A stretch of 64,000 nucleotides of DNA. It comes from Lunularia cruciata. Taxonomy: Eukaryota; Streptophyta; Marchantiopsida; Lunulariales; Lunulariaceae. Where the stretch lies: contig OX419756.1 in the NCBI GenBank assembly GCA_948567375.1, positions 74,042,333-74,106,332 on the forward strand. Direction: 5' to 3'. Made by a program: the position numbers and the translations under genes. Below, piece after piece: positions 15,001 through 55,155 of the stretch (its first letter is position 1; every line of letters begins with the position of its first letter). The notes below the pieces were generated by a model, which was not told the DNA's origin, made no database searches, and saw nothing but the letters and a program-made list of their open reading frames with translations.

Positions 15001-18000
15001 CATTCTGCGTAGCATAATATGTTTCCCTCGGTGTTGGAAATGTCTGTGGTTGCTCATTCTGTGGGCGTCTTGGTTTTGTAGCAGGATTCAAGGGGCCGAT
15101 GGAGCAGCAAACCTGCTCTTGACGTGAAAAATCAGGAGAACTCTTGTTGTGTTATTCACAACGAGCTAGGAGAGGAACTCTTTCTACGTGTAGTAGAGCA
15201 CAAGCGATCGAAGGTTTTGCCGCTTCCATCAGGAGGTAGTGTGTCAGTGAGACTACCCACTTCACACAGGATTGAAGAACCAGGTAGCAAGGGTACATCA
15301 AGGAAAAGTTCCAACAAGTTTGTTGCTCTGAAAATTGGAGATGCCCAGGTTTGTTTATTAGTCCTCCGTGGATCTTTTATACATTTTCGCACTTTGTCTT
15401 CCCCATGCACTCAAATCAGCATTCGCTAGAATAACTAGTAAAACTTCTCGGCGGACGATCCTGCTTTACTGCGTACTTAGTGCATCCGGTGTCTCTTTCA
15501 CATGGCCTTCTAGTGAGATTTGACAGATCTTGACATGCTACCAAGATAAGAACTTCACCAGATTTCTTGATACCAAAAGTCATTGTTTTGTAGATTATGC
15601 ATATGTGAGTGAGGTACAATCGATGTGAGGGTTGATCCATTCAAGCGTAGTGCTTTTAAACTTCATAATTAAACTTTAGGGTTTCTGGTCTATATACAGC
15701 AACTCTAATTGGTTGTAGTAATTATCTTCATATGTATCGTATGCTGGGTTACCATCATATGTCAGAGTTAGAGTCAGTCCTGTCAGACGTGGAGGTGGAA
15801 CCGGTTGTTTACAACGGGTTCTGTATCCCGTTACAGAAATATATACCATATGCTGTTTGAGTTTCACGTAAATGTGAGTCTCTGCACATCCTGGTCTAAC
15901 TACAAGAAGGTTAATGTGTTCCATAGCTTCCCAGAAACGAAGGCATAGGGGGCCGGGATTACATGGTGGCCATGCGTGTGGTTCCTCGTACACAGTCTTC
16001 TGATCAGCGGCAGCTTCAGTATCAAAGTGCCCGAACACGTTGTGTCCCTCCAGAAGAGGGTGCATTTTCAGAGAACATCACTGTTCACTGGGATGAGACG
16101 TTTATCTTCGAGATTGATTCAGAGGTGAGATGTTTGGCAAATGTTTTGGCATATTCTGTTTAAGTAGTCATTAAACGTCGAGAGTACGAACGTCCAGATT
16201 TGCCAAACTAATAAGTGTATTTGTCCCAATATTCGAGAATTTGTTGAATTTTATCTGCCAGAAACGTTATGCATGTGTAAATGTTAGGGTGGTCTAATAT
16301 ACAACTTAATGAGAAGGGCAGTGAGGTCTATCAAATGAGGTAGAATTGCCATTATCTTAGTATCAGGCGGTTACAGCTGCCCATTTTTTGACGACACCGA
16401 TCCAGCGAATACAGTGGCAGATACCCATTGAACCAGGCTAAGTTTCAAAGTTAAGCTCTCTAGCGTGCAGAACGTAATTTTGCACATTTTCTGTCATTGT
16501 TTACGTCAATGCACGTGGAGGTCTTCAATCTGCCTTCACAGATCTGGAAGATTGGTGCTACCTTGTCTTTTAGTGAAATCACCTCTCAAAGTACCTGGAT
16601 GAGACTTCTGACGCACAAAATGTGCCTTCTTTTTGGGCAATAGGAAGGGAATACAGCAGAGATGGTCATCACTGATTTGAGTAAAGGTAATTATTGTAAT
16701 GAAATTGAGGTTTCGACCTTTTCAATTGATTTTCTCTGTGTCCTTCCCCAAGTACTTCATTAGATAGATAGTAATCATCAGCTTTCCGCAAAGTTCTGGA
16801 GAAATCTTACGTCGTCTCCTCCTTTCAGGTACTCCGATTGGGTTCTGCTCATCTCAGCTGTCACATGGAACACCACATCGGACAAAGTCTGGCCCTGACA
16901 GTCAGAAACCGTGGTCAGAGCTGGAGTTGGAATGGGAGTCTGTTTATCCTATGCAAAGCTCTGAGGTTAGTTTCCAAAATTTCAAGCAGATGTTTCTTGT
17001 TCTGCATTGCAGCTGCGTGTTAGTGCATGGAATTCATGTATCGTATGCCTCAATTAGCTTATCAACATTACACTTGCGATGATGATAAGCTACTTGCACT
17101 TTGCTGCGCCATCACACTGCGCCTCCGATGTCACTAGAACATGAGTCATAAATACAGAAAATAATTGTTGTCCTGCTGAGTAATGAGCTAAAGCTCGCAA
17201 ATTGTTCTGTCTCCGAAAAGCAGCCTTGAGATGATCATTCTAATAGCAATTGATTGCGGACAGATAGATAGAGAACTAAGTTGACCTCTCAGTTAGTATT
17301 TAAGGTTGCAACTAAATCGTTATCTTCCTTCTGATGTTATAGATCCACTTCTAATCTTGTCTATGATCTACTATTGAAGGATTAATGGGAAGACATTTAT
17401 ATTGCATGCTACTTTTCTGCTGCAGCTCAAAGACGACGGGTTTCGAGAACCATGCGGTAGAATAAGCCTGGCGAAGCATTTCTTCAGTTTTGGTGGAGAG
17501 CCTACAAAAGATGTTGACGGCAAAAGTCGTGAGGCAGGAACTTTCCAATTTAGCCCATCACCGGAAGGACCCTGGAGTCAAATTGGTTTGAATTACGCTT
17601 TGGGTGCGGCACCTTGGATGGCGCACAAGGATGTAATGGCCAGTGAGTTCTATGTAGAAGGGGGAGTCAAGCACCTGATCATTCGCTCGCTCGTCGTCGT
17701 CCAAAATGGCACGGACTTCGACTTAGAAGTTAGTTTATGTATGCTGTCTGCCCTTGGGACGAAAACAGCGGCAGTAGAGAGCGAAGCTGGAGAAATCGTG
17801 GACGAAGAAATATTTGAGAATGAGCGATACCAACCTTTGGTTGGCTGGGGAAGCAAATGGCCCGGTCACCTCTTACCCTCAGACCCTGGACGATACAGTG
17901 GAAAAGACTCAAAAGTATCAACAGAGGTAAGGTTTCATAGGAGTTATGTTCTAATTGTCTGGTTATGGTAGTGTCGTACGGTTGTTCCATGCTGTCCAAA

Positions 18001-21000
18001 GCTCAAAGTTCGCATGTTTTGTGAGATAATATGGCTATCTACAATTTCAATGAAGCAATTAACGTTTCGAATTGTATCAACACAGGAGTTTCCTGTCGTG
18101 AAGCTGCCACCAGGCTGGACGTGGACAAATGACTGGCATATTGATCGGGAGGACCCTGGGGTAGATGAAGGTGGTTGGGGTTATGGTTTTGATTTTCGCA
18201 ACATGACGTGGCCTCCTACTGATGGTTCTGGAAAGATGCTTAGATTCGTAAGGCGCAGGAGATGGGTCCGATCCAGGCAATCTGTGACTGGTGGAAGTAC
18301 TAGAGTACTAGTTGGGACTTTACAACCCGGTGGTAAGATCCCGCTACCAATAGCATGTCTACGTGCCACGAGTCCCGACTATTGCCTCCAGATTAGACCA
18401 CGCTGTGAGGGATATAACTCTGGGTCTTATCGATGGAGCCAGGTAATTCCTCATAAAGGGTTTCCTGAACATAGAACTAAACAGGAAACACAGAGCGAAA
18501 TAAGAATACAATCGCTTATTGAGACGGAAGAGCTGTTAACCTGTTGCACTGAAGCGTCCAGTAGCTCCTCAGGAGAAAAAGACATGTGGTTCTGTCTGGA
18601 AACAACGGGCACAATTATCGGAAAAGATGCACGGGTGAATCCAATCAAAGACTGGAAACTGGTCGTCACAGCCCCGATGATGATTCTAAACTATCTTCCA
18701 GTCCCATCTGAGTACACTGTATACGAGAAACGAACTACCAAGGGTCTAACAAAACGAGAGAGAGGAGTCATCAAACCTGGGGAAGCTGCAGGACTTTTCC
18801 ATGTAGACCTCAGGAAACCGTTGCATCTAACTTGGCATCCTCAAGGTGGTTGGCACCCCAAGAAGGTATCCTTCATACCTGCTTTCCTCCTTAATTTCAT
18901 CTGCACTCGGTTTGTCTTACCACCTAACAATTTTTACGTTTTCCTTGTAGGAAACTGTCGTCATTTCCCATTCATACAGAGACGCTGCCAATCACATTTC
19001 CTACACCAATCCCAAAACTTCAAGGTATGAAGATTCTGCCTTGTATATTATCGTTGCCGCATAGCTCTTTAGTTGTTTGGGTCAACTGGAGGTAATAGCG
19101 TTCATGTTTAATGTAAAATCCAGGGGAAGTTCCTGAAGAATGTGTCTTTTATGGTAAGAGATGAACTTATGTCAACAGTAAAAATTGGCAACTGATGTTG
19201 AACAACGGCACTGCTGCATGTCTTATCAGCTTATGCCTGTTTTGATCTTCCCGGTCACACTTGACCAAACTTATGCATCGGGCTACAACATGCCCATTTA
19301 TGCTCACGTTGACTTGTATGTAGGTCAATGGAAGTTATGATAGAATACGATCAGGATGTAAAGGGTGTTGCAGCAAAAGTTCTACGAATCTATGTACCTT
19401 GTTGGCTGGATAGTGCCAAGTGCCCAGCTCTCCAATTCAGATTTATGGACATCATACAATGTGGGGATTCTAAGGCTGTGAGCGGAAACGCGACAAATCA
19501 TGATGGGATAACATTGGGCAAAGTCAAGGAACAGATAAATCAGGATGAGATGGAAAACTGCCAGACAATGCTTTCGGATATAGATCTGGATACTATGGGG
19601 CTGGCAGTTGCTGTGACCAGCAGCAATCCCAACGAGTTTGGGCCCGTTTCAGCTCTCAGTTCTCTCACGAACCCGGTACGTTGATCCATATTTTGTTCTT
19701 CCAAGTTCCATATCAAGTTAAATAAGAAGACGAGTCAACTAACTTCTCTTTTCAAGATTTGTGTTCTTTCGATTGCAAAAGGTGCGTAAGGTGAATAGAA
19801 GGGTAATTTGTATCCAGTGCTTAATCCGAGTAGAAGGTCCAACCTTGATCTGATAAATCGGAAAAACTCAAATCTGTTTGGAAGTAGTAAACTCCAGTAA
19901 CAGCTACGCTGATCCGGAAATAACACATATGGAGTATACATGCTAACCTTAGATCAACTCGAGTTCTCAAGGTCCCCGTCGTGGACTGCTGTTACTGGAA
20001 GCAAACAAAAGCTAATTATTCTTCTGCCTTTTGTCATCCAGGATGGAACCGTCGAACTAAGAGGGTTAGCTGAGAACGGTTCATTCTACCGCTTTCTTGT
20101 AACGACAGCTTCCTGCCCGTTGCACTTCGTCAAAACAAAGGTAAAGGGAATAGTTTCCCCCTTCATTAGTGAGAAATACCTGTATGAGCTAGAAAAAGTC
20201 GATATATCGAGTTGTTTGATAGCTTTATCTTTATCCTTGCTGCTTTCATATTTCGTTACTGAACTAGGATAGTGGATCTCAAATCTGATTTTGATCCTTG
20301 TTACTTCACAGGTTGTTCGCATCCGGCCTTACATTTTATTCACCAATCGGCTTGGAGAGACTCTTCACCTCAAACAGAAGCAAGCTGATGATGCTAATAC
20401 CTTGAAATCTTCTGATTGGAGAGTGTCGTTTCCATTTCCCGAAACTGAGGAATCTGAGCTATTGCAGGTCCTTTTCCGATTCTTATCCTCTAAAATCCAG
20501 TGCTGCTTGCAGTCAAAAGTGTATTCAGAATTATACCTACGTCTATATTTGCATAGTTCCAAAAACATCATGCCGAATGGAAAATAGTTAGTTAGTTTAC
20601 AGCTCAGTAATCAATAGCCTTCGTTCAGCAACGGTTTGTCCGGGGCATTATTATTGGCGAAAAGCAAAACTTCTCCACGTTTTAGTGTTTAGAGATAGTA
20701 ATTAGATTGAATAAACTTCGATGAATGTTATGCTGTGAATCATGAAAATTATGGAATGGGAACGTATTGGCGTAATCTTTAGTGTGGAATTTTATTTCTT
20801 CTTAAAGTCAGAGAGGATTCTCATTCTGTTTTAGGTCTGAAACAAGTGCGAAACCAGTCATTGTCAGACTTGGTCGGCAGATTATTGAAATGGAGAGAAG
20901 TGACTTTTTCCCTTGCAGATTAAGGTAGACGGATGCCACTGGTCACACCCTTTCGCCATTGACAAAGAAACAACCATGCACATTGCATTGCGCAAAGAGG

Positions 21001-22607
21001 GAGGAGGAAGACGAAGTGTTCGAGTTGAAATTCGGGGATATGAAGAAGGATCTCGCTTTCTAGTCATGTTCAGATTAGGATCTGTTCGAGGTCCTTACAG
21101 GTACGGCATATACATATAGCTGATTCACCAGCAGATTTCCTTCGGTGATGCCCCGGGGTATATGCATCCAGTTGACCCCTATTTAAATCAGATATGTTGA
21201 CTTTGACTCTTATGTGTTGTGCTTTTCATTAAAGACAGATAGCCTGCACGTCGCTAATTAGCTCATTGCTTTGCACAGGCTGGACAACCGCTGCAGTAAG
21301 AGTCCCCTCAAGATTCGCCAGAGTGGCCTTGATGATGATGCCTGGCAGGATCTGCTTCCACACTCAACTAAGACATTTGCTTGGGAGGACCATTGTCATG
21401 ATCAACTTTTGGAAGTGGTAGCGGCTGGCAGCAACGTGACCATCGATGCCAACAAACTCGGTGACCACCCTCCCATTATTTCAGGCTATGACTCTACCAC
21501 GATTTGCGTCCGTGTATTGGAATTGATGGACGTCAAGACCGTGAGATTCTATGAAGAAATTGAAGCGCAGGATACACCGGAGGAAGTTGAAGAGATATCA
21601 CAGAGTCAACGAGATTTGGATCCAGTGAAGGAGGAAGAGCAAGCAGTGTCATCTCGGACAGAGGTCGTGGTAGACATTCCCAAGTTGGGGCTATCAATGA
21701 CTGATCAAAAGCCACAGGAAATCTTGTACTTGTGTTTGGGTGGTGTCATGGTCACGTACCAAATGGGATTTGGTGAGAGAACTAGCAGGTAAGAACACTT
21801 TTTTGTGGCTGCATTTTAGTAGGCAAGACACTATGGTCCCTTCAAGATAATCCATCTTAGTTTAGACAGTTGATTGAGACGTAGGGAATATTGATCAAGC
21901 AACAATTGTATGAGTTACACATAGATAAACCTTGAGAAAAGGGTCGTTGAGGTGAGAAAGCTTTTTATACCCGACGTAATTGGGAACTCAGAGAATATCG
22001 AGGTAAAAGTAAAGTTTGCCCTCCATTTTGTATATCTTTTGTGCACAACGATATCCTTGCTAAAAGCATAATCGTCAATCTGCCATGTTTGGGGTCCTGA
22101 GCAGATTCAAATTGCGAGTTGGCGAACTGCAACTGGACAATCAACTTCCTCTTGCATGGATGCCCGTGCTTCTTGCTCCAGAAAGGAGAAACGAAGAGAA
22201 AGATTTCTTGTTGAAGGCCACGGTCATAATGTTTGACGACCATGTTGAAACGACGACTGTTTTCCCCTATGTCGGTGTTGAAGTAAGTACTTTGTTCAGA
22301 TTGAAGTAGCGGAAACTTTGTTTTGTCGGATGTTTTGGAGTTCTCTATTATCCCCAGATACTCGGTCCATATCTCCATCAATTTGGTCAAGCAAAACAAA
22401 GAGCTCATCTTCGCTCAGTAGCATCTATAGTACCCTGCAATAGGTGAAGCTGCATTCCATTACATTGTGATAAGAATTGTTGTTTCCTCTGAATGAAGTT
22501 GAAGGTCTATCCTCAGTCATTCTGACTTCTGATATATCAGACATCCTAGCACTCAGTTTTCCCAGTCTCACCAGAGTAAACATTCCTGATTTCTCACAGC
22601 AATACTC

Positions 22608-22670
<63 letters not shown>

Positions 22671-25600
22671 TTCAGAGATAATACACAACAGTTCACTCAC
22701 ATAGCATGATAGACACCCCAAGATAAGCAGCACAGAAAACACCTGAAACCATGGACAAAGTGCTAGGAATGACCCTTGCAGGAGAACTGACTATTCCAAG
22801 CTCAGAAACACAGTTATATACACAGAAGCAAAAGCTAGGAGGCTGCTTTGTATAACCCTAGAGTGGCTGCGCCTCATTTTACCCTAATGAGATAGCTGAA
22901 CCCTAGAGGTGCCTAAACTAGAACCACAAAAACTAGAGAATGCACTAAACTAGAGATTAACTAAATCTAACACATCGTGTATTCCAGTACTCAACATATG
23001 TGGTGAACGATTGTGATTTATGACGATTCATGACTTGCTTTGCATATATTCATTGTTAGTTCGCCGAAACTATATTGCAAGTTACAAAGTAGAGTCTTGT
23101 CTGTCAGCCCTTTCATCTAGCGGCCACCTCATACTGTTACTCAATATATTTCGGTGGGACATTTGCCTAGGTGAGTGACTCCATGTAGAAAGTAGAAATT
23201 GCGTTTATTCTAACATATTGCTTATCATGTGTAGTGCGCATGCGGATGGCGGATCAACGTCCATGAGCCAATTATATGGGCTATAGTTGAGATGTACAAC
23301 AACCTCCACTTGGATCGTCTGTCTGATGGTTCCGATGTTGTCCAGGTCGATCCAGAGTATAAAATTGAGTAAGTACATTATATCTAGAACCCTTTCAGTC
23401 AATCAAATTATAAGGGAATATAATTCAGTGCTTTTATTTTCTCGTAGACTTTAAGGGCAATTCACGGTTTAGGGTCTTCAGCACGAATCACTGTACTCAG
23501 CTCCACACATGCGAGCGACCGTCCCAGATGTTTCCAAGGAAATTTATTCTGCCAGATATGCACGTTTCTGGTTCGCATATAGTCATTATTCATTTTGATT
23601 CGTATGTTCTGCATAATGTGGAATTGTAAATGGCATTACACACGAGGTCAACGTGGTAAAATCTTCAACTATGTCAGCGGAAGTTTCTCGACAATGGCGC
23701 CCTTACGGATTACGCTGTCATAAATTCGATAAACGCTTCCGCATTTTCTCTCTAGTATTACCTCAGCTTGCAAACTAGGGACAATTAAGTCAGAATCTGA
23801 GAGGTATAAAGGGATTTGTATGTCTCATAAATCTTACCTTCGAGCGCCCCGGAGAGCTCCGGAGACCGGTGGTAAAGTATAGACGTAAGGATTACCGAAT
23901 GCTGTGCGTTGGACATTCAGGAGAGTCATTTAGAGGGATTATTTCTTCCTTGGCTCTCCTTTGAAAGGTATCTGGAGAGAACTTCCGTTTTATTCTTTCC
24001 CGAAAAGGCGGGACGCTTCTAGTCAAGCTCGTCTATAGGACTTGAGGCAGGAGTAGAATTTTATCATGTTTCACATATTTCACCCTGTACTGCCGACCCA
24101 CGTTCTATGTACGGTTTCACGTTTTTGACATTCTCCGCACCCGACCACTAACAGTCATTGAGCCTGTTTGTTTGTTGCCATACAAGGCATGGCTCTCGCC
24201 CTTTTACTAAACACTATTCGACTAAAGTGACTCCTGGGCTACCTGCATAACCACTCTCTACTTCATTATATTTATCGCATATGCTTGGCGTGCTAGCTGC
24301 GGTTCTCTCTCTTTTTCTGCTTTCAAGTATATTCTTCACCCTACTGATATATATATGTCAGAACCTGGTATATGTCCTCCACTTCTGAACCTGCATATGA
24401 TATACAGGTCAGTTACTCACTCACACCTTTCCACCTTGCCATCTGACTGCTGGTTTTTCCTCTGCTGCCGTCCTGGTCTACTATACTAGATGATCAATGC
24501 TTTTTATTCTCTTGTGAAGGGGAGGCTAAAAGCTGATGCTGGCCTCCCTATTCCGTTCATCTTTGCGTCTGCATTTTTTGGGTACCACTTTCAGAAAGAA
24601 CCAAGTTTGCCTTTGGCACTCATGAACAAAGGAACAGAAACTCGGAACGGGAGATACTGGCATTGCATCCAGCTATCTTGGCACCCCGCAAAGCACTGAC
24701 AAGATCGTGGGTGTTATCTTGCAGACTTACTATGAGAAGATTGCCCTTTCCTTACTGTGTTTTGTAGTGTTGACGTACTCATGCTGACCTAGAGCATGCA
24801 GGGGTTAATGCAGCCCTCATACACTCACCCCCGGGAGCATCTCATAATTTGTTAGACTTAGGGAGTTACATGTGCTATGCACTGAGAGCTTCATACTGTC
24901 AACACGTCATGCTTCTCTTTCAAGGTTACACTTGCTCGCACTCATTATGTACTGCAGGTACCTATGCATCAAGAACATCATACCGATCGCTGTATGCAGA
25001 TTTAAGCATGCATACCGCACTATGTAACTGATGGTTATGACGATCTTGATTAGGTCACCATCATATATAGGAGTCATAGTCACTCCATGTTAGACGTGGA
25101 ACCGGGTTGTTTACAACGGGTTCTGTATTTCATTGCGTAATTTGTCATCTTAATGTCTAAGACAAAAATTTTGTGTGATGGCAGATTGATCGATGTGTCT
25201 GAAATACGTTTGAAGTTAACTTTAGAGACCGCTCCAGCCGCACGTCCTCGTGGTATGCTTGGTTATTGGAGTCCATTCGTCACGGGTCTTGGAAATACCA
25301 ACAAAATGCCGGTAAGCTTTTCATTGAGTACTGAACAGCTTAAGTTGCTCTAAACCACCTTCAGTGACGAAGGAGCAACAAGAAATAACGATTTATTTGC
25401 TGTTCTTACAGATCCACTTGAGCAACGTTTTCCATGAACAGCGATACATGAGGAAAAGTCAGATTGGTCCTGCGGTCTCAAACAGAATACGAAGAGATTT
25501 GATCCACCAACCTCTTCTTCTTTTGAGTGGAGTAGATTTTCTAGGAAATGCAAGCTCCACGATAGGAACGTTGAGCAAAGGCGCAGCCCAGTTGTCAAGT

Positions 25601-28405
25601 GATGGGAAATATCTACGACTTCGATCAAAGAAGGTCCGTTTTGCACCCTCTGCGCAATATTACAGACGACCATGTTCAGAACATTGAGATTCTAGTCTTT
25701 ACCAATGAATCATTAAATCACAACGAACTTTAGACTTTGTTATTTGGGGTTTGTTTGACACTGACAAAGAATTTGTGCCCAAACTTTTCAGGATAAAGCC
25801 AGAAATCTATCTGGTGTGGGTGATGGACTTTTGCAAGGGACAGAAGCATTGGCACGAGGGTTTGCATATGGTTTTAGTGGCGTTATAACCAAACCCATTA
25901 CAAATGCAAGGCAGGAAGGCTTGGTTGGATTTTTCCATGGCGTGGGTAAAGCTGCGATAGGGGTTGTAGTGCTCCCTGTTAGTGGAATACTTGAATTTGT
26001 TTCTTTGACTGTGAATGGTGTTAGCGTGAGTTGCACTAACTGCTTCGAGGTATTTGACCGGGAGGGTCATGTCCGAAGAGTAAGGATCCCGAGGGCTATA
26101 CGGGGAGATGGCATATTGCAAACCTATGACGAGCACGCTGCGCTTGGACAGGTACGTCAATAGGGAGACACTACGAACTCCAACTGGGAGACCGATCTAA
26201 GTGAGTTTGGAACCTAATCTTGAAATTAAAGAGGCGAGCTTGGCCTTTACTCCCTTGTGAGAGAGGGGAATGCACCGAGTACTCAAGCATTTAGGAATTT
26301 TATTTAGTCAATTTTTATGCGTGATATGCCGACCATAAAATGATGCCATTTTACTATTCTGAATCAATTTTGGGACTTGTTGGGACCAGCCATGACTAAC
26401 AGGTTGCACTGATTCTTGTGACTGATAGGCACTTCTCCATCTTGCTCAATCTGGAGCTCTCTTTGGCCTGAGGGATGTGTTCAGCGAACCTGCCAAATAT
26501 GCGGAATCAGATTTCTACGAGAAACATTTCGAGTTGCCCAAAAACAGGGTTCTTATGCTGACCAATCGTCGAGCAATGATGCTTCTAGTAAGTAGTCACT
26601 CAGGAAGCACGGATATAGGTTATCCTATTAGACCATTTTTTGGCTTTATCTGGTATTTAAAGATATGCTAGAAATTGCACGTTTCTGATATTCTTACCTG
26701 TCCTAGTGTTGATTCTAACGGAGCCTTTTGCACTTGTACAGCGGCCTAAATCGCACTTCCAGAAGTCAGAGAAATTATTCACAGATCCTAGCAAAATACT
26801 CTGGGAAGTAATTTGGCAAGATGTGTTGGCCGTTGAAATAGCTGCCCAGATCCCATCAATTGTGATTCTCCATCTACGGTGGAGTGCAAAAAGCTTCGCA
26901 CAAGTTATAAAATGTTTCCAAGGAGAGCTGGACGCAAGGATTACTCATGCAAAGCAAATATCCAAAACTATACGCGATGTGTGGAGGAAATATGGACCTG
27001 AGCGGAGGGTCCTTGAGTCCGAGGTGGGGCCTGGCTTTATGATGTGACTTACGAATGATACTGGAGCACATCTAGACTAACATTTAAGCAGGTCATGTTG
27101 TATCGAGTCAGGTCTTGCTAAATTGCCGTGACGATGTTGATGGAGTTTACGAAAATAACATATGCCTCCAATGTGCAGGAAAAGAGACGTTCTCATCACC
27201 GGACTTTACCCACACTAAGGTCGAAACGATCGATGCACCTGGGAAGTGGTAGAGAGGATGAGTTGGTGGAATCATCCTTTGGAACTGACGGCAGAAGTCT
27301 TTCACTCGAGCAGCCTTGGAGCGAGACTTGCGAGGTGGTGCTTTTCAAAAAGATATGGAGTAGTGAACAAGAACCGGGCATTTCAAGCTCCCTCTGCTCT
27401 CTGGTATAACCTTCACCTTCACACTTGAGTAGCCTTGTATTTCCAGTTCATAGCTGCTCCTGATATTTAGCATAATATGCGTGTCTTCTATTTTTTTGTT
27501 AGTGCCTTATGCTCCTAATATAGAAGCGATGTATCCCCATTTTAAGAATTGAGTAACTCCATAGTGGGTCCTTTACCTTAAGATATTTTGCCTCTTGTTG
27601 TACAGAGCTCTTCTACCGGAGATATTTGCACAATATGGCGACCGAAGGCACCAGACGGGTAAGGAGCTCAGACTTTCGGATTGGTTTCGTACTTTCTTCT
27701 AGTTAAGAATCAGATCTATAACTGCGCTAGTATGTGACGGTTATCTATTTGTAACTCACAATTTCCACCTGTGACACTGGCAGCTACGTTTCCACTGGAG
27801 ATGTTGCCCACCAGGGTTCTGAGCCACCAGCTATGGCTGTCACTTACAAAAATGAGAAGGGCTCGTTTGCAAAACCTACCGGTTACGAGTTGGTACGTTT
27901 TCTACCTCCAGTCTGTCGTCATGGCTTATGAAAGGCTATATCCTTCATTCTAGACTGAAGTACAGCAATTTCCGCTTGCACGCGTCTATATCAATTGTCG
28001 AGTGTGTTCAGGCCAATTCCTTGAGGTCCTGGACTGAAATATATGTGTTTGTATATTTGACTGTAGGTTTGGAGAAATTGGAAAGACGGGTTCTCTTCGA
28101 ATGTGTCCATATGGATGCCAAGGGCTCCCGAGGGCTATGTTGCAGCAGGCTGTGTAGCAGTAGCTGGTTACCTTGAACCACAGCCTGGTGCATGTTGGTG
28201 CGTCAAAGAGGAATTAACAGAACTTACCGAATTCGAGGACATACCAATTTGGCAAGCACCTACCACTTGTCCTTGGAACTGTTATATATATCCCATCACT
28301 TGTGAGGCTCTTACGTTTTTAGCCTTGCGTGAGCAAGCCGAAGATATAGGAATAAGACCTAGAAAGGTTAGGTTGCTCAATAGCACTAGTGTACATCAAA
28401 ATTAG
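85..28405 (+). CDS. VPS13: VPS13-type bulk lipid-transfer protein, C-terminal ~2,537 codons (5' part outside window)
   Basis: Plant VPS13 proteins are very large rod-shaped lipid-transfer proteins at membrane contact sites. The exon translations match the plant VPS13M type as I remember it (Arabidopsis At4g17140/At1g48090). Exons by splice signal and phase: 85-298, 11827-12105, 12273-12360, 12576-12896, 13048-13437, 13632-13962, 14147-14305, 14410-14573, 14776-14959, 15085-15348, 15927-16124, 16644-16686, 16829-16965, 17426-17926, 18086-18865, 18951-19024, 19324-19675, 20042-20140, 20312-20467, 20919-21100, 21279-21788, 22105-22282, 23235-23368, 25185-25311, 25412-25633, 25792-26151, 26429-26587, 26742-27023, 27179-27403, 27606-27658, 27784-27892, 28067-28405. 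All joins keep frame and contain no stop. Uncertain points: the acceptor at 11827 (11833 also fits), the weak donor after 14959, and the last codons, where I read through 28390 to the TAG at 28403 although a further small exon is possible. Confidence 0.88.
299..448. other. Start of the 11.5-kb VPS13 intron
   Basis: Intron sequence between exon 1 and the first Copia insertion. The donor is inferred at GCGA|GTGAAA (298/299), the only nearby GT whose phase joins exon 2. A GC-type donor (CAG|GCGAGT) is also visible at 294/295, but its phase does not fit the next exon. Confidence 0.5.
449..960 (-). repeat. Copia-1 3' LTR
   Basis: This 512-bp copy aligns with 5149-5662 along its whole length. It carries an extra CATTCAAAGA near 610 and lacks one AAAGGGTGTGCTG-type repeat present in the other copy near 5490. 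A TATATAA-type TATA box on the minus strand sits around 774-784. Confidence 0.9.
950..4507 (-). pseudogene. Copia-1 pol: CCHC, protease, integrase, reverse transcriptase, RNase H
   Basis: Read from 4507 downward. The nucleic-acid knuckle CYFCHEKGHIAPLC is at about 4410. The protease core WFLDSGATSH is at about 4160, and the integrase zinc motif is HLWHLRLGHLSEQN. The catalytic core contains SFVDDYSRK, RTDGGREY and AQNGVAERLNRT. Reverse transcriptase has CKWVFRVKRG, QLDVKTAFLNGDL, LYGLKQAPRAWY and the catalytic YVDDLLLLG. RNase H has the final RTKHIEIR block. Lesions seen: an A-run frameshift near 3332 between integrase halves, a one-base shift near 2950 after the integrase, and an in-frame TGA at 1247-1249. 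All catalytic motifs read intact, so degradation looks recent. Confidence 0.9.
4508..5144 (-). pseudogene. Copia-1 gag
   Basis: The first ATG (minus strand, 5144-5142) lies inside the primer-binding site and opens a frame reading MGPQSPPGLIGELRDIEKLG. That frame continues into a Copia gag with NYKAWALDVKS and later WDKIKSYY, YRVWSAVKNLRLQDGEDF and HLLDSLPSSYDS. A one-base frameshift near 5020 separates the two parts. The gag frame ends at a single TAA (4508-4510) that is in frame with the following CCHC/protease frame. Copia elements usually make one polyprotein, so this is either a mutation or a read-through point. Confidence 0.8.
5132..5148 (-). other. Copia-1 primer-binding site matching the initiator tRNA-Met anticodon arm
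   Basis: Immediately inside the 5' LTR the minus strand reads GGTTATGGGCCC. This is complementary to GGGCCCAUAACC of plant initiator tRNA-Met, the anticodon stem-loop containing anticodon CAU. It is not the usual tRNA 3' end. Drosophila copia is the known precedent for priming by an internal half of initiator tRNA-Met. The other two Copia elements here use the ordinary 3'-end type site. Confidence 0.75.
5149..5662 (-). repeat. Copia-1 5' LTR
   Basis: This is the promoter-bearing LTR in element orientation. U3 contains three TGAACAGT-like motifs in tandem at 5576-5615 (plus strand), and a TATATAA-type TATA box lies on the minus strand near 5464-5473. The element thus has a potential promoter directed against VPS13 transcription. 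Confidence 0.85.
5663..6496. other. VPS13 intron remnant between two Copia elements
   Basis: About 830 bp with no recognisable gene or repeat. Short open frames such as 6181-6366 show no family resemblance. It is most simply original intron sequence left between the two insertions. Confidence 0.6.
6497..6726 (-). repeat. Copia-2 3' LTR
   Basis: This 230-bp LTR is similar throughout to 11376-11603. It holds four TGAACA-type motifs near 6640-6700 and the GATTATATAG promoter core near 6552-6561. Confidence 0.92.
6734..10400 (-). pseudogene. Copia-2 pol remnants
   Basis: Domains in order from 10400 down: an incomplete CCHC-like knuckle (CQYCSKKGHHIKDS, last Cys replaced by Ser), protease (YIDTAASQHMT), integrase (TFIDDYTRYTFLY, RSDNGGEYNYADF, QQNGVAERKNRT), then reverse transcriptase (ALDVKTAFLNGTL). 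The catalytic YVDD has become YVNDCI near 7690. RNase H (STGGYCFIFCNAAVCWSSKRQ and ERTKHIDIRFHFVREK) ends at 6734. Frames shift near 9360, 8360, 7865 and 7260. The Asp-to-Asn change in the reverse transcriptase box would by itself abolish polymerase activity. Confidence 0.88.
10402..11117 (-). pseudogene. Copia-2 gag with Ala/Gly/Val-rich leader
   Basis: From the ATG at 11117 the frame begins MSVAAGASTLTGAGVGAPAP, a low-complexity Ala-Gly-Val-Pro leader of about 40 residues, and stops in frame. A following frame contains KFNDNYFQSWKYCLALK and IFTIVDGTEIKP, then the UBN2-like body TKQITNFRGVFTQLAA and PSSFNYFLQSLR. This matches the gag of common plant Copia lineages apart from the leader. Confidence 0.75.
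11376..11603 (-). repeat. Copia-2 5' LTR
   Basis: The TATA core TATATAATC is on the minus strand at about 11431-11440. Four TGAAYA-type motifs lie at 11520-11577, upstream of the TATA box in element orientation, where U3 enhancers are expected. Confidence 0.85.
12273..14959 (+). other. VPS13 segment: first Vps62/DUF946-like block
   Basis: Exons 3-9 encode the tryptophan-rich repeats found in the middle of plant VPS13M proteins. They show the pattern FWRPRAPPGFAVLGD, then VWLPVAPRGYVALGC, then SIWRPVIPAGCAILGDIAVEG, then SFWFPVAPPNYVAMGC. The recurring W-x-P-x-x-P-x-G-[FYC]-[AV]-x-x-G signature is that of the Vps62/DUF946 family. It is followed by the conserved stretches FDDYGGL and WEPLVEPCDGR. 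This unit is typical of the plant M-type proteins and absent from the short plant VPS13. Its molecular role is not established. Confidence 0.8.
15751..15840. repeat. Dispersed palindromic repeat, copy 1 (VPS13 intron 10)
   Basis: This ~90-bp stretch recurs at 25057-25143. Its core, 15798-15821, is a near-perfect 24-nt palindrome (GAACCGGTTGT/ACAACGGGTTC arms around a short TTT centre). It lies about 90 bp before exon 11. It could be the remnant of a small inverted-repeat transposon or a structured RNA element. Confidence 0.6.
15927..16965 (+). other. VPS13 segment: C2-like domain
   Basis: Exons 11-13 read LPRNEGIGGRDYMVAMRVVP, then VHWDETFIFEID, then EMVITDLSKGTPIGFCSSQL. This is the layout of a C2 beta-sandwich: an acidic or variable loop, the W-[ND]-E-x-F-x-F strand, then [VI]-x-D-x-x-K-G-x-x-[VI]-G. 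The exon start at 15927, after a CCATAG acceptor, is the only one nearby that keeps the phase-0 join to exon 10 (ending GDAQ) and avoids the in-frame TAG just upstream. C2 domains bind phospholipids. The canonical calcium-binding aspartates are not clearly complete, so calcium dependence is uncertain. Confidence 0.65.
18086..21788 (+). other. VPS13 segment: DysF-like motif and VPS13 adaptor-binding (VAB/SHR-BD) region
   Basis: Exon 15 opens with WTWTNDWHIDRE, then EGGWGYGFDF and MTWPP. This spacing of tryptophans and acidic residues resembles a dysferlin/peroxin (DysF) motif, known within plant VPS13M proteins. Exons 15-21 then carry repeats typical of the VPS13 adaptor-binding region: NYLPVPSEYTVYE, KPLHLTWHPQGGWHPKK, IRPYILFTNRLGETLHLKQ and the basic RRSVRVEIRGYEEGSRF. 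In yeast the VAB domain docks Pro-x-Pro adaptors that choose the membrane contact site. No adaptor is encoded in this window. An acidic, Glu/Gln-rich linker sits near 21,560-21,650 within exon 21. Confidence 0.7.
22468..22972 (-). mobile_element. Solo LTR related to Copia-1
   Basis: About 505 bp bounded by TGATAAG... and ...TCTAACA on the plus strand. It matches the Copia-1 LTR at both ends (ATTCTGACTTCTGATATATC, CACTCAGTTTTCCCAGTCTC, AACTAGAGATTAACTAAATC). Flanks CATTG (22463-22467) and CATCG (22973-22977) are a 4-of-5 target duplication. No internal element sequence is present, so the element was probably lost by LTR-LTR recombination. It sits in the VPS13 intron between exons 22 and 23. 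Confidence 0.85.
22611..22664. repeat. (TC)27 microsatellite inside the solo LTR
   Basis: Twenty-seven uninterrupted TC units. The equivalent place in the Copia-1 LTR has only CTCTCTCC, so the tract appears to have expanded from that seed after insertion. Confidence 0.9.
23369..25184. other. Long VPS13 intron 23 with repeat fragments
   Basis: A 1.8-kb intron. It includes the palindromic repeat copy at its 3' end and, at about 24240-24770, a fragment of the dispersed family also found at 28.8-29.3 kb and 56-58.2 kb (shared phrase: AAGTTTGCCTTTGGCACTCATGA type). A GC-rich block at 23842-23874 contains the near-palindrome CCGGAGAGCTCCGG. No coding frame is convincing. Confidence 0.6.
25057..25143. 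repeat. Dispersed palindromic repeat, copy 2 (VPS13 intron 23)
   Basis: Same orientation and layout as 15751-15840, starting ACCATCATAT. The 25-nt palindrome is at 25099-25123 and lies about 60 bp before the exon 24 acceptor. The two copies are diverged but retain the palindrome. Confidence 0.6.
27606..28405 (+). other. VPS13 segment: C-terminal second Vps62/DUF946-like block
   Basis: Exons 30-32 encode TIWRPKAPDGYVSTGDVAHQG and SIWMPRAPEGYVAAGCVAVAG, the same W-x-P-x-A-P-x-G-Y-V signature as the internal block. They are followed by EDIPIWQAPTTCPWNCYIY and LTFLALREQ, as at the extreme C-terminus of plant VPS13M proteins. The open frame ends 16 codons after a possible donor (AAG|GTTAGG at 28390). 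Family proteins end soon after this point, so read-through to the TAG at 28403 is the simplest ending. Confidence 0.75.
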
Positions 28406-49000: not shown

Positions 49001-50140
49001 ATCTAGCAATAACCATAAATCATCACAAGAACTACTTACTCCAAACTAATATTTTTTAATCTTTCATTTGGAATCTTAAAGTCAGGTTATACATAAGATA
49101 ATAGATTTTTTAAACTAATAGTGATATGTAGTATGACAAATAGTCCACTTATTTATTTAATCCAATTCACCACTTTTTGGTTTTGAGTCATATGATCCCT
49201 CTAAAGAAGTATCAAAGGAGGTAAGTTCAAATATTCTCTAGTTAAAACTACTTGAATCATATATTTGAACATTTAATCAACTTGATCATAGAAATCCCCA
49301 ATTTAATGTAATCTAACTTTGAATTTATTGAAAAGTAGCATTTTTTTAGAGTAAAGGTTCAACAAGTGGAAGAAAAGTCAGATCAAGGTCCCAAAAACCA
49401 AGGAAGCAAGAGGACTTGGATTGGTCATATGGTACATATTTTACATATGGTGCTTTGAAGGAAGTACTCCCTTTCATCCTCATATGTGTAGTTATTAAGG
49501 ATTTGACCATAGAAAAGATGTGCAAGGAATGTTAGAGATAACAAGTCCTAACAAAATGACATGATAAGATGCATATGCAAGTTTCTAATTATGAATGATT
49601 GATGAGAGATAATGATGATGTAACTTCTATAGTCATGGAAAAAAATTCCCTAAGAACTACATGGTAGATTCCACTTATCATTACATTCTTTTTTTATTGA
49701 CTAACTTTGCATGGATCACAATAGAGTATAGCTTGTCAAAAAATTTCACTTCTCGATATATCAAAGATATCAAAAAGAAGTTTTTGGGTGCAAAGCCTTG
49801 TGCATGAGAGAAGTAATTCATTGGGAAGAGGTTTAATCAAAGAAGTAAAAGAACCTAAGAAAAGCTAGATTTTGCAAGTTTGTCATTCCTTCTTCCCTTG
49901 TCTTGTTCTCTTGGTATGAAAAGATAAAAGTTGTAATTAAAGATTAAGAACAACCAACTACAACTCAGGTCTTGCAAGTGTGTCATCCTTCTCATTTTCA
50001 TTCTTTTGTATAGAATGTGCCAAAGCTTAGAAGAAAACTAATCTAGACATTTTCTTCAAAGATATCTTCAAAAATAAGATTCATCTATTTAGAGCTAGGA
50101 TTTGTCATCAAGTTAGTCTCATCCCATAGTTGGGAATATG
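46061..50140. other. AT-rich, no recognised gene
   Basis: About 4 kb of AT-rich DNA. A block at 46380-46510 has repeated AGAAGCTTCTT-type inverted phrases, possibly LTR sequence. Short frames at 47685-47921, 47942-48274 and 48484-48681 show no family features and sit in low-complexity AT-rich DNA. I see no splice-linked coding exons. Confidence 0.45.
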
Positions 50141-51075
50141 GGATGCTACGGGAAAAAAGAAGTGATGGTACAATCCTTTCATGGCTAGTTATTCACTTGG
50201 CTTGGGGAGGAAATTTTCAACATTCCCATAGTTGGTCATAAATTTACTAAGGTATGGGAATCTCCCATATACACTTACCCTTGGAGATGACTCTTAAGTT
50301 TATCACCTCCTAGAGCCCTTTGGCCTCCTTGGTATATTCTTTTGTAAAGTTGTGACAAATTCCTATGTGCAGGTCTATTATACAACCTACCACTTGAATA
50401 ATCATTGCTATGAGTACTCAAGGAGCACTACATAACATACATAATTTAGCCAAAAATGCACTTACATATTTGTACAACACATAAAATTAGGGTAGAATAG
50501 TGTTGTCTTTACTAAGCCTGATTGCTTTGACCCTTAGTCCTAGATCAGTAATACACCTTTTGAAGGAAAATTGACCAATTCGACTAGGCTTGCCTTAGCT
50601 TGTAGGAAAAAAAAGCTATATCAAGATGGCTTAATCAGCCTTTAGAAGAATCCTCTATTGCCATGGATTCTAATCAAAAGATCTCCTACCAAGGGAGGAA
50701 TCTGCTCAAATAGCTGCTCTAACCCTAAAAACTACCCTTATTTACCCTTGTCACTTTTCTTGTTGTGGCCGCTACCTCCTCTTTGTGCTCGCACCATAAA
50801 TACCAATAAGCTCTCCTTCCTTAGATGCTCCTACTCTAGATGTACATAATTTCACATTGTTAGAACATCATTGGAGGGTTAATTACTACCTATCTTTGAA
50901 TAATGTACATTTTTACAACCAAAACCCCCGCACCAATGTTATAGAAGTTAGCCATTACTTTGTTCTATTTACATAGCATGTAGTTGATTCTTCACACACA
51001 TTCATTCCATAGTTTCTTCTATAACTTCTCATAGAGGGTTCATCCTATGCCTCTTGTTTCCTACTTAAGGCTTTT
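50141..51075. repeat. Diverged ~930-bp repeat, copy 1
   Basis: Co-linear with 54232-55155. Shared phrases in order: GAAGTGATGGTACAATCCTT, CCTTTGGCCTCCTTGGTAT, TACTAAGCCTGATTGCTT, TCTAGATGTACATA and TTCATCCCATAG-like. Probably part of a retroelement; which part is not recognised. Confidence 0.8.
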
Positions 51076-52570
51076 TTTCCCATGACATAGCACTCTCCTA
51101 AGTCTGTGCACTCTGGGAAAGCCTCATTTGTACTATCTCCTCTTCTTGCACTTATCATTTGACTAAGGGAAGAATTGGGCCCTCATTTATAGTTGGTTCC
51201 CGTCTGGTCTTTCTCTTGGTAATCCTTGATGATTGTGACTTACACATCAATGAACCCATCCAAGTATACCAACCCCAAGTTCCTTCCCAAAAACAACAAC
51301 TCCACATGCTAGCCTACTACATAAGGTACATGAAAGTTGTATTTTTTTTATCTCCAGTCAAAAAGGGTTAAACATACTTTCTTCTTTGATTTTTTTGGCC
51401 CCAATCAATTGTGCACCTAGGCTAAAGCCTTGCAATGTACCACTGCTTGGAACACTACTAGATCCTATGTAGTATACCACATATGCCAGCAGCTCTCCAC
51501 ATGTCCATGGTCTCTTGTACTCCCATATGGCAGAGTTGTACCTCAGATCAATAATGTGGCTTCTTCTTGTAGGAGAAATGGCGGATTCTACCTAAGTAGA
51601 GCACCTTTGAGTCCCATCTATCCTTAAGTCTTTCTTTTAAACCCTTGAGAAGGGAGTCCAAGGATGCATGAAGCCTTGTTGACTCCATATCAACATGCGT
51701 AATGATTGGTGGTGCAAGACCTTGGAAATTACTGGACAACCAACATAGTGGAGTGTCGGTTGGCACCATCAATCTTGCATGATTCTAGGATCAATAGATA
51801 CACAAAGGATTTTTTTCATGCTTAAGTACATAATGGAATTTCTCATATACTACTATGGATTATATGGGACTTCTTACCCAAAATTTTTAGTCCAAGTGGT
51901 AAGATATGGGAAGTCCTTTTACTACGGGTTTGCTTGACTTGGGCATATACAAGATAACCATCAAATTGTGCTTGTCCTTTGAATTTTCATCCTCCTTGCT
52001 GGCATCCAAGTCATGCCCCTTATCATGGCACTTGGTCATGTAGGAGCTTAGTGCATCGTATGTTAGAGAATACTTGAAGGTATGGCTCTTGCATTTTTGT
52101 ACCCATTTCTCCAAAATTGCTAAGGATACATCCATTGAAGGAGCAAAATTACTCCAAGCCCTCTCTCCCAATTGCTCAAGCACAATCTTAAGTTCCTATA
52201 TCATTGTGCTAATTTTCACCTTCTATGCTTTGAGATCAGTGTTGATGGTGGCATTATGGATGCTTTGTAATCTAACATCTTGATGTATTCTTGCGGTCTC
52301 CTTGTTGGACACCAATAGTACCTTGATGTATACTCGTCTAGGATATAACTTTTAGGATAAAAAAATACTTTTTTTTGCAGAAGAGGTCTTTGTAGTCTTT
52401 TAGGAGAATTAGTTTACTTAGCAAATCGTTAAGATTGTAGCATCGTTGAACTTGCTTGATGAATAAGCACCTCGGGGAGGAGAGTGGAGAAGATTATACT
52501 TGTATAGAGAAGGATTTCCCACTTAGATGCTTTCAGCAGTTCTTCCATACCAACTTGCTCTCCCAAATAA
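51076..52570. other. AT-rich sequence between repeat copy 1 and the mitochondrial insert
   Basis: No gene is recognised. The minus-strand frame 51887-52183 (98 codons, Lys/Ser-rich) has no family motif and is likely retroelement debris. Confidence 0.4.
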
Positions 52571-52660
52571 TATTATATTAATGCTTAGGATTTGATTGAT
52601 CAACTGTTCAAGCCGTATTCCGCCTACGACGCCCTGTTTGATAAAATACGCATAAAAGTT

Positions 52661-52922
52661 ATGAGTAATGGAGTTCGTCATTTATTGTGGGATTTGGGGT
52701 TTTTTCTAGAATTATCTAAAGTGTATACTTCCGGAATTATTATGTTATTCTGTGCAGCTTTTTTAGCTTTATTGAATGGTATTATTGAAAGATGGGGTTC
52801 CAAAATGAACAATTTTGCACAAAGATGGCTGTTTTCCACAAACCAAGCTTAGCTAACGCAATACCTGTCGTAGGAGACACTATAGTAACTTGGCTTTGGG
52901 GTGGCTAGACAATGCAACCTTA
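52661..52922 (+). pseudogene. Nuclear mosaic of mitochondrial sdh3, cox1 and cob fragments
   Basis: 52661-52777 encodes MSNGVRHLLWDLGFFLELSK and VYTSGIIMLFCAAFLALLN, the C-terminal part of bryophyte-type mitochondrial Sdh3. 52805-52843 encodes MNNFAQRWLFSTN, the start of Cox1, in frame with it. About 52850-52922 encodes NAIPVVGDTIVTWLWGG, then DNATL, an internal piece of cytochrome b lacking the two residues between these blocks through a microdeletion. All are on the same strand within 262 bp. Fragments of three genes so joined cannot be functional. They are either a copy of an already recombined mitochondrial region or pieces joined during nuclear capture. Confidence 0.85.
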
Positions 52923-53170
52923 CTCGCCAGAAAACGTCAAAAAGTGACACCCGTCCGCTACGCGTGGACGCAAGATGTAATAAAACGGGGGTGTTACACG
53001 GTGGGGGGTTATGTGGACTTCTACATATGTCCCGGGAATGTAGTTCTTCTTCTACCCACATGGATAGAGGGATTCACCCCGCCTGTGCCGGAAATGGCTT
53101 GACGATTTCTGCACACTCCTTAACGAAAGGAGGCACGTAGTGCAAAGACCTGAGGGAGAGGTGCGTAGCA
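52923..53170. other. GC-rich continuation of the mitochondrial insert, origin unassigned
   Basis: This stretch is distinctly more GC-rich than the AT-rich flanks (for example CACCCGTCCGCTACGCGTGG near 52949). Open frames cross it in two phases. It is probably more organelle-derived DNA, but I cannot name the source. The change back to AT-rich sequence at about 53170 is the likely right edge. Confidence 0.45.
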
Positions 53171-53650: not shown

Positions 53651-54052
53651 ACAAAAGGTGGTAACAGTGACTACATGAATCATAGGAGCTAAAACAGGTG
53701 TTTTGACCACAAGAAAGGCTTGTGTAGAAGCCAGTTGTGGTACTAGTGCAGATGGGTTTTCTTGGGCAGACTTGCTTGCCATTAAAGATTCTTCTTATGA
53801 TTTAACAAGAGTACTAGGCTTTCCCTTGGGTTTAAAACAACACAACTTGTGACAAAAGGTGGTAACAGTGACTACATAAATCATAGGAGCTAAAACAGGT
53901 GTTTTGACCACAAGAAAGGCTTGTGTAGAAGCCATTTGTGCTACTAGTGCAGATGGGTTTTCTTGGGCAGACTTGCTTGCCATTAAAGATTCTTCTTATG
54001 ATTTAACAAGAGTACTAGTACTTTCCCTTGGGTTTAAAACAACACAACTTGT
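53651..54052. repeat. Two-copy 201-bp tandem duplication
   Basis: Both units start ACAAAAGGTGGTAACAGTGA (53651 and 53852) and run nearly identically through AGCTAAAACAGGTGTTTTGA and GGGTTTTCTTGGGCAGACTT. Only a few substitutions and a 3-bp difference separate them, so the duplication is recent compared with the surrounding repeats. Confidence 0.92.
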
Positions 54053-54231
54053 AGAAATGGGAGGTAATGCTTCCCCTTGGCTTAAAACAATAGTATTCTT
54101 GTGGCCTAGAGGAGAATAAACATGTCTTGAGCAAGTTGTAGAGATTAGTGGAGAGGACATACCAGTCAGCCGGTAGTGGCACCAAAAATATCGGTGGATT
54201 AGTCCAATCCTATAGTGAGGAATACATGATG

Positions 54232-55155
54232 CTAAAAAAAGGAAGTGATGGTACAATCCTTGTGCTGTTGGCCATTCACTTGGCTCCAAGAGGAAATGTT
54301 GTCAAGATTCCCATAATGGTCATAAATCCACCAAGGTATTGGAATTTCCCACAGACACTCACCTTTGGAGGTGGCTCTCAAGTTTTTCACCCCCATGAGC
54401 CCTTTGGCCTCCTTGGTATGTTCCTTCTTGAAATTGCAATAGATTCTTATAGGTAGGTCTATAAAACACCTAATTCTTAAGGAATTAATGCAAAGAGTAC
54501 CTAAGGAGCACTGATTCATAACTTAGCAAAAAATGCACTTGACCATTTGTACTACATACTAAATTAAGGTAGAATAATGTTTTCTTTACTAAGCCTGATT
54601 GCTTCAACCCTTAGGCTTGGATCAATAGTACAACTTTTAAAGGAAGACCAACCAATTCCCATAGTTATGGCTAGGCCTACCTTAGCCCATAAGCAAAAAA
54701 AGATATATCAAGATGGTTGAATCTGCCTTTAGAAGAGTCCTCTACTGCAATGGATTTTAATCAAAGATCCCTTACAAAGGGAGGAAAGACCCACTTAAAT
54801 AGTTGCTCTAACCCTAAAAATAATTTTCTATCTACTTCTTCTTGCAGCCACCATCTCCTCTATGTGCTTGCACCATAAATGCAAGTTGGCCCTCCTCTCT
54901 CAAATGCTCATACTCTAGATGTACATAGTCTAAAATTGTTAGAGCATTTCTGAAATCTTAATTTCTACATATCTCCAAAGAATGTACATCCATATAGCCT
55001 AAATTCCCACATTTTCATTAGGTGAAGCTGGCCTGTAAGTTCTATTTACATAGCCCATAGATGATTCTTCTTGCACATTCATCCCATAGTTTCCTTTGTA
55101 ACTTCTTGTAGAGTGTACCATTTTGTACCTCTTGTTTCATGCTTAATGCTTTTTC
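54232..55155. repeat. Diverged ~930-bp repeat, copy 2
   Basis: Same strand and order as 50141-51075, about 4.1 kb away. The mitochondrial insert and the 201-bp tandem duplication lie between the copies, which could be LTRs or a duplicated block. Confidence 0.8.

Follow-up and report, generated by a model that had tools for sequence, protein, structure and literature searches.

How did parts of three mitochondrial respiratory genes come to lie side by side on a liverwort chromosome? In the 64,000-nt stretch of the Lunularia cruciata genome analysed here (the window), the original prediction recognised fragments of sdh3, cox1 and cob as mitochondrial DNA captured in the nucleus, and it offered two origins for them, a recombined form of the mitochondrial genome or the joining of several fragments end to end. 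The window corresponds to C2:74042333-74106332 in an assembly of 565.8 Mb in 74 contigs. Since it occupies 74.04-74.11 Mb of the 76.57-Mb contig C2, the place of the insert is chromosomal, and VPS13-like and copia-type coding stretches share the window with it. The VPS13-like stretches belong to an apparent nuclear gene at 11000-27000 (VPS13_VAB at 17972-19027 and a weak VPS13_C at 25765-26160), while the copia-type stretches lie at 1-11 kb; an Rfam search and a tRNA scan of the window returned nothing useful.

We take the contig C73 (191,351 bp) to be the mitochondrial genome of Lunularia cruciata, as it contains sequence matching cob, cox1, nad3, nad5, nad6, atp9 and rps2, together with an sdh3 frame, the SSU rRNA, many tRNAs and group II introns. 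One 5-kb stretch of C73 was masked, and comparisons with it cover the readable 186,351 of its 191,351 bases. BLAST against C73 resolves window positions 52557-53170 (614 nt) into a gapless tiling of eight mitochondrial pieces, which are abutted on the left by a piece resembling LSU rRNA:

52499..52556, - strand: LSU rRNA-like piece abutting the mosaic, recognised by similarity to Azospirillum DNA and by Rfam
52557..52604, + strand: piece 1, 48 nt, from C73:71056-71103 (+), adjoining trnP (C73 70982-71055); 97.9% identity
52605..52661, + strand: piece 2, 57 nt, from C73:108417-108473 (+), overlapping a nad2-like frame in antisense orientation; 100% identity
52660..52777, + strand: piece 3, 118 nt, 3' part of sdh3, from C73:70702-70585 (-); 100% identity; Pfam PF01127
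52776..52845, + strand: piece 4, 70 nt, cox1 upstream sequence and the start of exon 1, from C73:150881-150950 (+); 97.1% identity, two G>A
52844..52922, + strand: piece 5, 79 nt, part of a cob pseudogene, including a 7-nt deletion, from C73:81949-81871 (-); 100% identity to the pseudogene
52922..53002, + strand: piece 6, 81 nt, from C73:171216-171296 (+); 98.8% identity
53002..53086, + strand: piece 7, 85 nt, from C73:121622-121706 (+), which lies some 0.5 kb away from a match to rps2; 100% identity
53087..53170, + strand: piece 8, 84 nt, from C73:128567-128650 (+), which follows a match to atp9 by some 0.4 kb on its downstream side; 96.4% identity, three C>T/G>A

A mosaic is thus present where one had been proposed (52661-53170, with three fragments), but it is longer and holds eight mitochondrial pieces with a mean length of 77 nt. 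The adjoining DNA of about 250 bp, previously described only as GC-rich, is in fact made up of pieces 6 to 8; a cob intron starting at site 537, considered as an identity for this part, is ruled out, as its three pieces come from three distant places of C73. The sources of all eight pieces are scattered over C73 on both strands, and those of neighbouring pieces lie 6.9-89 kb apart on the C73 circle. Because the best C73 match of each piece has an E-value between 2e-15 and 4e-55, chance similarity is excluded. Neighbouring pieces overlap by 0, 2, 2, 2, 1, 1 and 0 nt in order along the window; by default, BLAST extends piece 7 into piece 8 by six bases, at the cost of two mismatches. Against the plant's mitochondrial contig, the insert gave separate matches (seven in a genome search and eight by BLAST) and not one continuous match, in favour of the joining of several fragments.

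All three of the named respiratory gene fragments were found, and all three are on the + strand. The C-terminal part of Sdh3 is recognised by Pfam PF01127 (Sdh_cyt, E 1.8e-6), an intact sdh3 frame lies within C73 70546-71076 (-), and this Sdh3 resembles that of Marchantia, in line, like the size of C73, with a liverwort. The residues of the Cox1 start, MNNFAQRWLFSTN, also open a frame in C73 upstream of its cox1 exons; phmmer of this 23-residue start against the PDB gave nothing, and a search of bacterial genomes with a pattern for the cox1 start gave nothing useful. For the cytochrome b piece, SLANAIPVVGDTIVTWLWGG, the best PDB matches are the Cob chains of the plant entries 8zno, 8bel, 7jrg and 8e73 (E about 5e-7).

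The Sdh3 and Cox1 parts do share a single frame, as was claimed, but the open frame covers 52589-52852 and has 87 codons, not 86 codons from 52592. The residues GIIERWGSK, which lie between Sdh3 and the cox1 ATG, are cox1 upstream sequence, the last of them altered by G>A. Because the codons just before the cox1 ATG have this origin, we read the shared frame as a coincidence, and two joined pieces are expected to fall in a common frame by chance in one case out of three. The same reading, coincidence, is the best one for the short sdh3-cox1 frame that begins with the ATG at 52661. Judging by the sequence, nothing that we observed in this frame would point to a gene, and the mosaic as a whole is likely to be without function. 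A literature search for "sdh3-cox1" found no report.

The cob piece carries a small internal deletion, as predicted, but the deletion is older than the insert. In addition to an intact-looking cob with introns, C73 encodes a cob pseudogene without the first intron; piece 5 is 100% identical to this pseudogene and matches the intact-looking cob, which is without the deletion, at only 89.5% and with a gap. Since the pseudogene carries the same 7-nt deletion, this deletion was made in the mitochondrion and not in the nucleus. In the pseudogene (C73:80964-82589), the first cob intron is missing but sequence resembling the next intron region is retained; this suggests a retrocopy, partly spliced, that arose within the mitochondrion. 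The pseudogene is also one of six runs of at least three abutting internal repeats in C73. For liverworts, then, it goes too far to regard gene-fragment chimeras as alien to bryophyte mitochondria; in the comparison given in PMC3325193, the mitochondrial spacers of three liverworts contain a few dozen pseudogene pieces while those of two mosses contain none.

Could the mosaic then have arisen in mitochondria, as a rare recombined molecule that was copied whole to the nucleus? The shuffling within C73, seen in the cob pseudogene and the six repeat runs, lends some weight to this idea, as does the description of moss RECA1 and RECG as suppressors of recombination between short dispersed repeats (PMC4358946). 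However, the 186,351 readable bases of C73 (of 191,351 in all) contain none of the seven 24-nt strings that span the junctions, and neighbouring sources share 0-2 nt, not repeats. We consider a mitochondrial origin of the mosaic improbable. Nor does the insert resemble a mitochondrial chimeric open reading frame of the CMS type, in which the chimera resides in the mitochondrial genome, as the readable part of C73 contains none of its junctions. We therefore return to the joining of separate fragments on the way to the nucleus.

The changes that the insert has accumulated also support its nuclear location. Compared with C73, it differs at seven sites in 622 aligned nt; all seven are C>T or G>A and six are in CpG (p 1.2e-6 under equal rates). 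Over 20 loci, comprising the window and 19 other nuclear loci, C>T/G>A changes account for 254 of 472 substitutions, 145 of these 254 being in CpG, while T>C/A>G changes number 56. This bias is as expected from nuclear cytosine methylation and unlike an assembly artefact. Indeed, seven differences of the C>T/G>A type only, six of them in CpG, are not what one would expect if misassembled or chimeric mitochondrial reads had produced the mosaic, and multi-piece loci of the same kind are spread over eight large contigs (C1, C2, C6, C7, C8, C10, C11 and C12). We regard an artefact as extremely unlikely.

To the left of piece 1, positions 52499-52541 (43 nt) match Azospirillum DNA at 83.7%, at a place that lies inside LSU_rRNA_bacteria (Rfam), and the LSU rRNA-like alignment extends to about 52559. 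BLAST of 52499-52556 against the readable part of C73 gave no match, and Rfam found no LSU gene there. This stretch is a probable ninth organellar piece, whose source may be the masked 5-kb stretch of C73, the plastid or elsewhere; a plastid source would make the insert a numin, in which plastid and mitochondrial DNA are mixed. Searches of plasmid and phage DNA, beyond this rRNA match, and of IMG/VR gave nothing useful. As a separate observation, a contig filed under the Legionellales MAG UBA10507 (L003) looks mitochondrial, from a green alga or a comparable organism, with a row of frames like cob, nad3, atp9, rps2, nad6 and nad5.

The surroundings of the insert are transposon-like. Two direct repeats of about 0.96 kb (50113-51076 and 54199-55154, 74.5% identical) bracket it and may be an old LTR pair; a 200-nt unit in two tandem copies (53651-53850 and 53852-54052, 97.5% identical) lies beside it. 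An Athila-type primer site was tried as a mark of an LTR element, and its best match (11 of 18, - strand) gives such an element no support because two other sites in the same stretch match equally well. The bracketing repeats, together with the sense orientation of the sdh3, cox1 and cob pieces, would suit a chimera made by a reverse transcriptase that switched templates among mitochondrial RNAs, perhaps within the surrounding retroelement. Against this, piece 2 is antisense to the nad2-like frame, no protein domain besides the Sdh3 piece was detected between the repeats in five of the six frames, and the element looks older than the insert, as its repeats are 74.5% identical while the insert retains about 99% identity to its source. 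Template switching is, in our judgement, exceedingly improbable.

The window mosaic is not alone in the genome. A genome search scored 40 of 63 candidate matches, namely the window itself, eight in C73 and 31 in other contigs, and 28 of these 31 nuclear matches were examined (20 with long and eight with short flanks), three places on C7 being left out. As the loci were chosen by similarity to pieces of the window insert, they do not represent numts at random. Pieces below 55 bits were left out of the junction, divergence and piece-count analyses. Among the 29 loci, window included, 19 hold at least two abutting pieces, 12 hold at least three and 10 hold no abutting pieces; the window, with eight, holds the most. 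When the near-duplicates L039, L044 and L050 are removed, the corresponding counts are 18 and 11 of 26 loci, again with the window. Inner pieces have a median length of 104 nt (n=32, range 31-372, near-duplicates included). The locus pairs L048/L050, L044/L060 and L015/L039 hold the same mitochondrial pieces, so that some insertions were apparently copied once they were in the nucleus. Modules with fixed ends that recur across the nucleus were also considered and are ruled out, as the matches continue past those ends, most of which only mark where one piece of the query meets the next. If mosaics were copies of rare recombined molecules, a separate rare form of the mitochondrial genome would be required for every one of the 18 multi-piece loci.

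The 26 loci provide 50 junctions, none of which (0/50) is collinear within 300 nt in C73. Joins between pieces of the same strand make up 20 of the 50, no departure from one half (p 0.20), which also speaks against template switching among RNAs. Seven junctions are blunt, 32 overlap by 1-7 nt, two overlap by more, and nine have a gap of 1-11 nt. An overlap of at least 1 nt is found at 68% of the 50 junctions, compared with 50% in a control set of 491 random joins (Fisher p 0.018). A rank test on the whole overlap distribution gives p 0.083, and an earlier microhomology test, on 45 junctions and 359 controls, showed no excess (p 0.22). The overlaps fit end joining with at most slight microhomology.

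Did the pieces arrive together? Within the window mosaic, equal divergence of the pieces is not rejected (p 0.34), in a test whose power is low with short pieces. The test was extended to the window and 19 other nuclear loci, L050 being left out. Among the nine loci with at least three pieces, seven, including the window, are compatible with equal divergence, again with low power, while L049 and L051 are heterogeneous (p 0.001 and 0.002). Divergence differs between loci (p 5e-19). Since most loci show no departure from equal divergence within themselves, at low power, while divergence varies between loci, it is probable that the majority of mosaics arrived in one piece. The alternative would be separate numts that entered a fragile site in succession, and nuclear hotspots are indeed one cause proposed for clusters of organelle DNA (PMC7037861). 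However, the pieces in the window abut without intervening nuclear DNA, and their divergence gives no sign of differing ages at the power just stated. Successive landing is thus very unlikely.

We are confident that the insert is a complex numt, in which small fragments of mitochondrial DNA were end-joined and probably closed a break in a transposon-like stretch. Pieces with separate origins in the mitochondrial genome lie adjacent to each other at a nuclear location, and their junctions are blunt or have 1-7 bp of microhomology, as in complex numts. In our model, breakage of mitochondrial DNA would first yield fragments some 50-120 nt long. Eight or more of these, drawn from across the genome and in either orientation, would then be joined end to end by end joining with little or no homology. 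Finally, the joined product would seal a break in the transposon-like chromosome stretch. The joining most likely took place before or during a single insertion; its pathway would be non-homologous end joining (NHEJ) or alternative end joining, and the target a double-strand break.

Similar structures are known from flowering plants, where the joins of complex numts and numins are described as blunt or with microhomology and are thought to have formed before or during capture (PMC6215612, PMC7037861). Like the numts and numins of Portugez, Martin and Hazkani-Covo 2018 (PMC6215612), the window mosaic unites at one locus fragments from different places and in different orientations, with blunt or microhomology junctions. 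In contrast, its fragments average 77 nt, whereas the two examples from that work with which we compared it are kilobase-sized and consist of two to four pieces, and its host, unlike theirs, is not a flowering plant. The mosaic therefore belongs to the known complex numts, and the fineness of its pieces and its non-flowering host look unusual. Among the titles listed in a literature search, none concerns liverwort numts. The nucleus of Toxoplasma also holds many very short organelle fragments and is in this respect alike; unlike the Toxoplasma mitochondrial genome, which is itself fragmented, the one here is a single 191-kb contig with an intact sdh3 frame. A role for NHEJ has been implicated in the Toxoplasma nuclear fragments (PMC12181080). 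Closer to the host, the pseudogenes in liverwort and Huperzia mitochondrial spacers are likewise mitochondrial gene fragments out of place, the cob pseudogene of C73 being such a case; they lie inside the mitochondrial genome, as described in PMC3325193, whereas the mosaic is chromosomal.

It is possible, though we would not yet call it probable, that in this plant fine mosaics of mitochondrial DNA scraps are a standing product of organelle-to-nucleus transfer. Mitochondrial DNA would then be shattered into scraps near 100 nt in length, which would be ligated to concatemers ahead of their capture. If this is true, the nuclear genome keeps a record of the shattering of mitochondrial DNA. The sdh3-cox1-cob chimera itself was most likely made by end joining en route to the nucleus, and it cautions that respiratory genes found fused in frame in plant DNA may represent neither a mitochondrial recombinant nor a gene. 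Furthermore, fine mosaics in a non-flowering plant offer many junctions of differing age for studying how organelle DNA is broken and rejoined.
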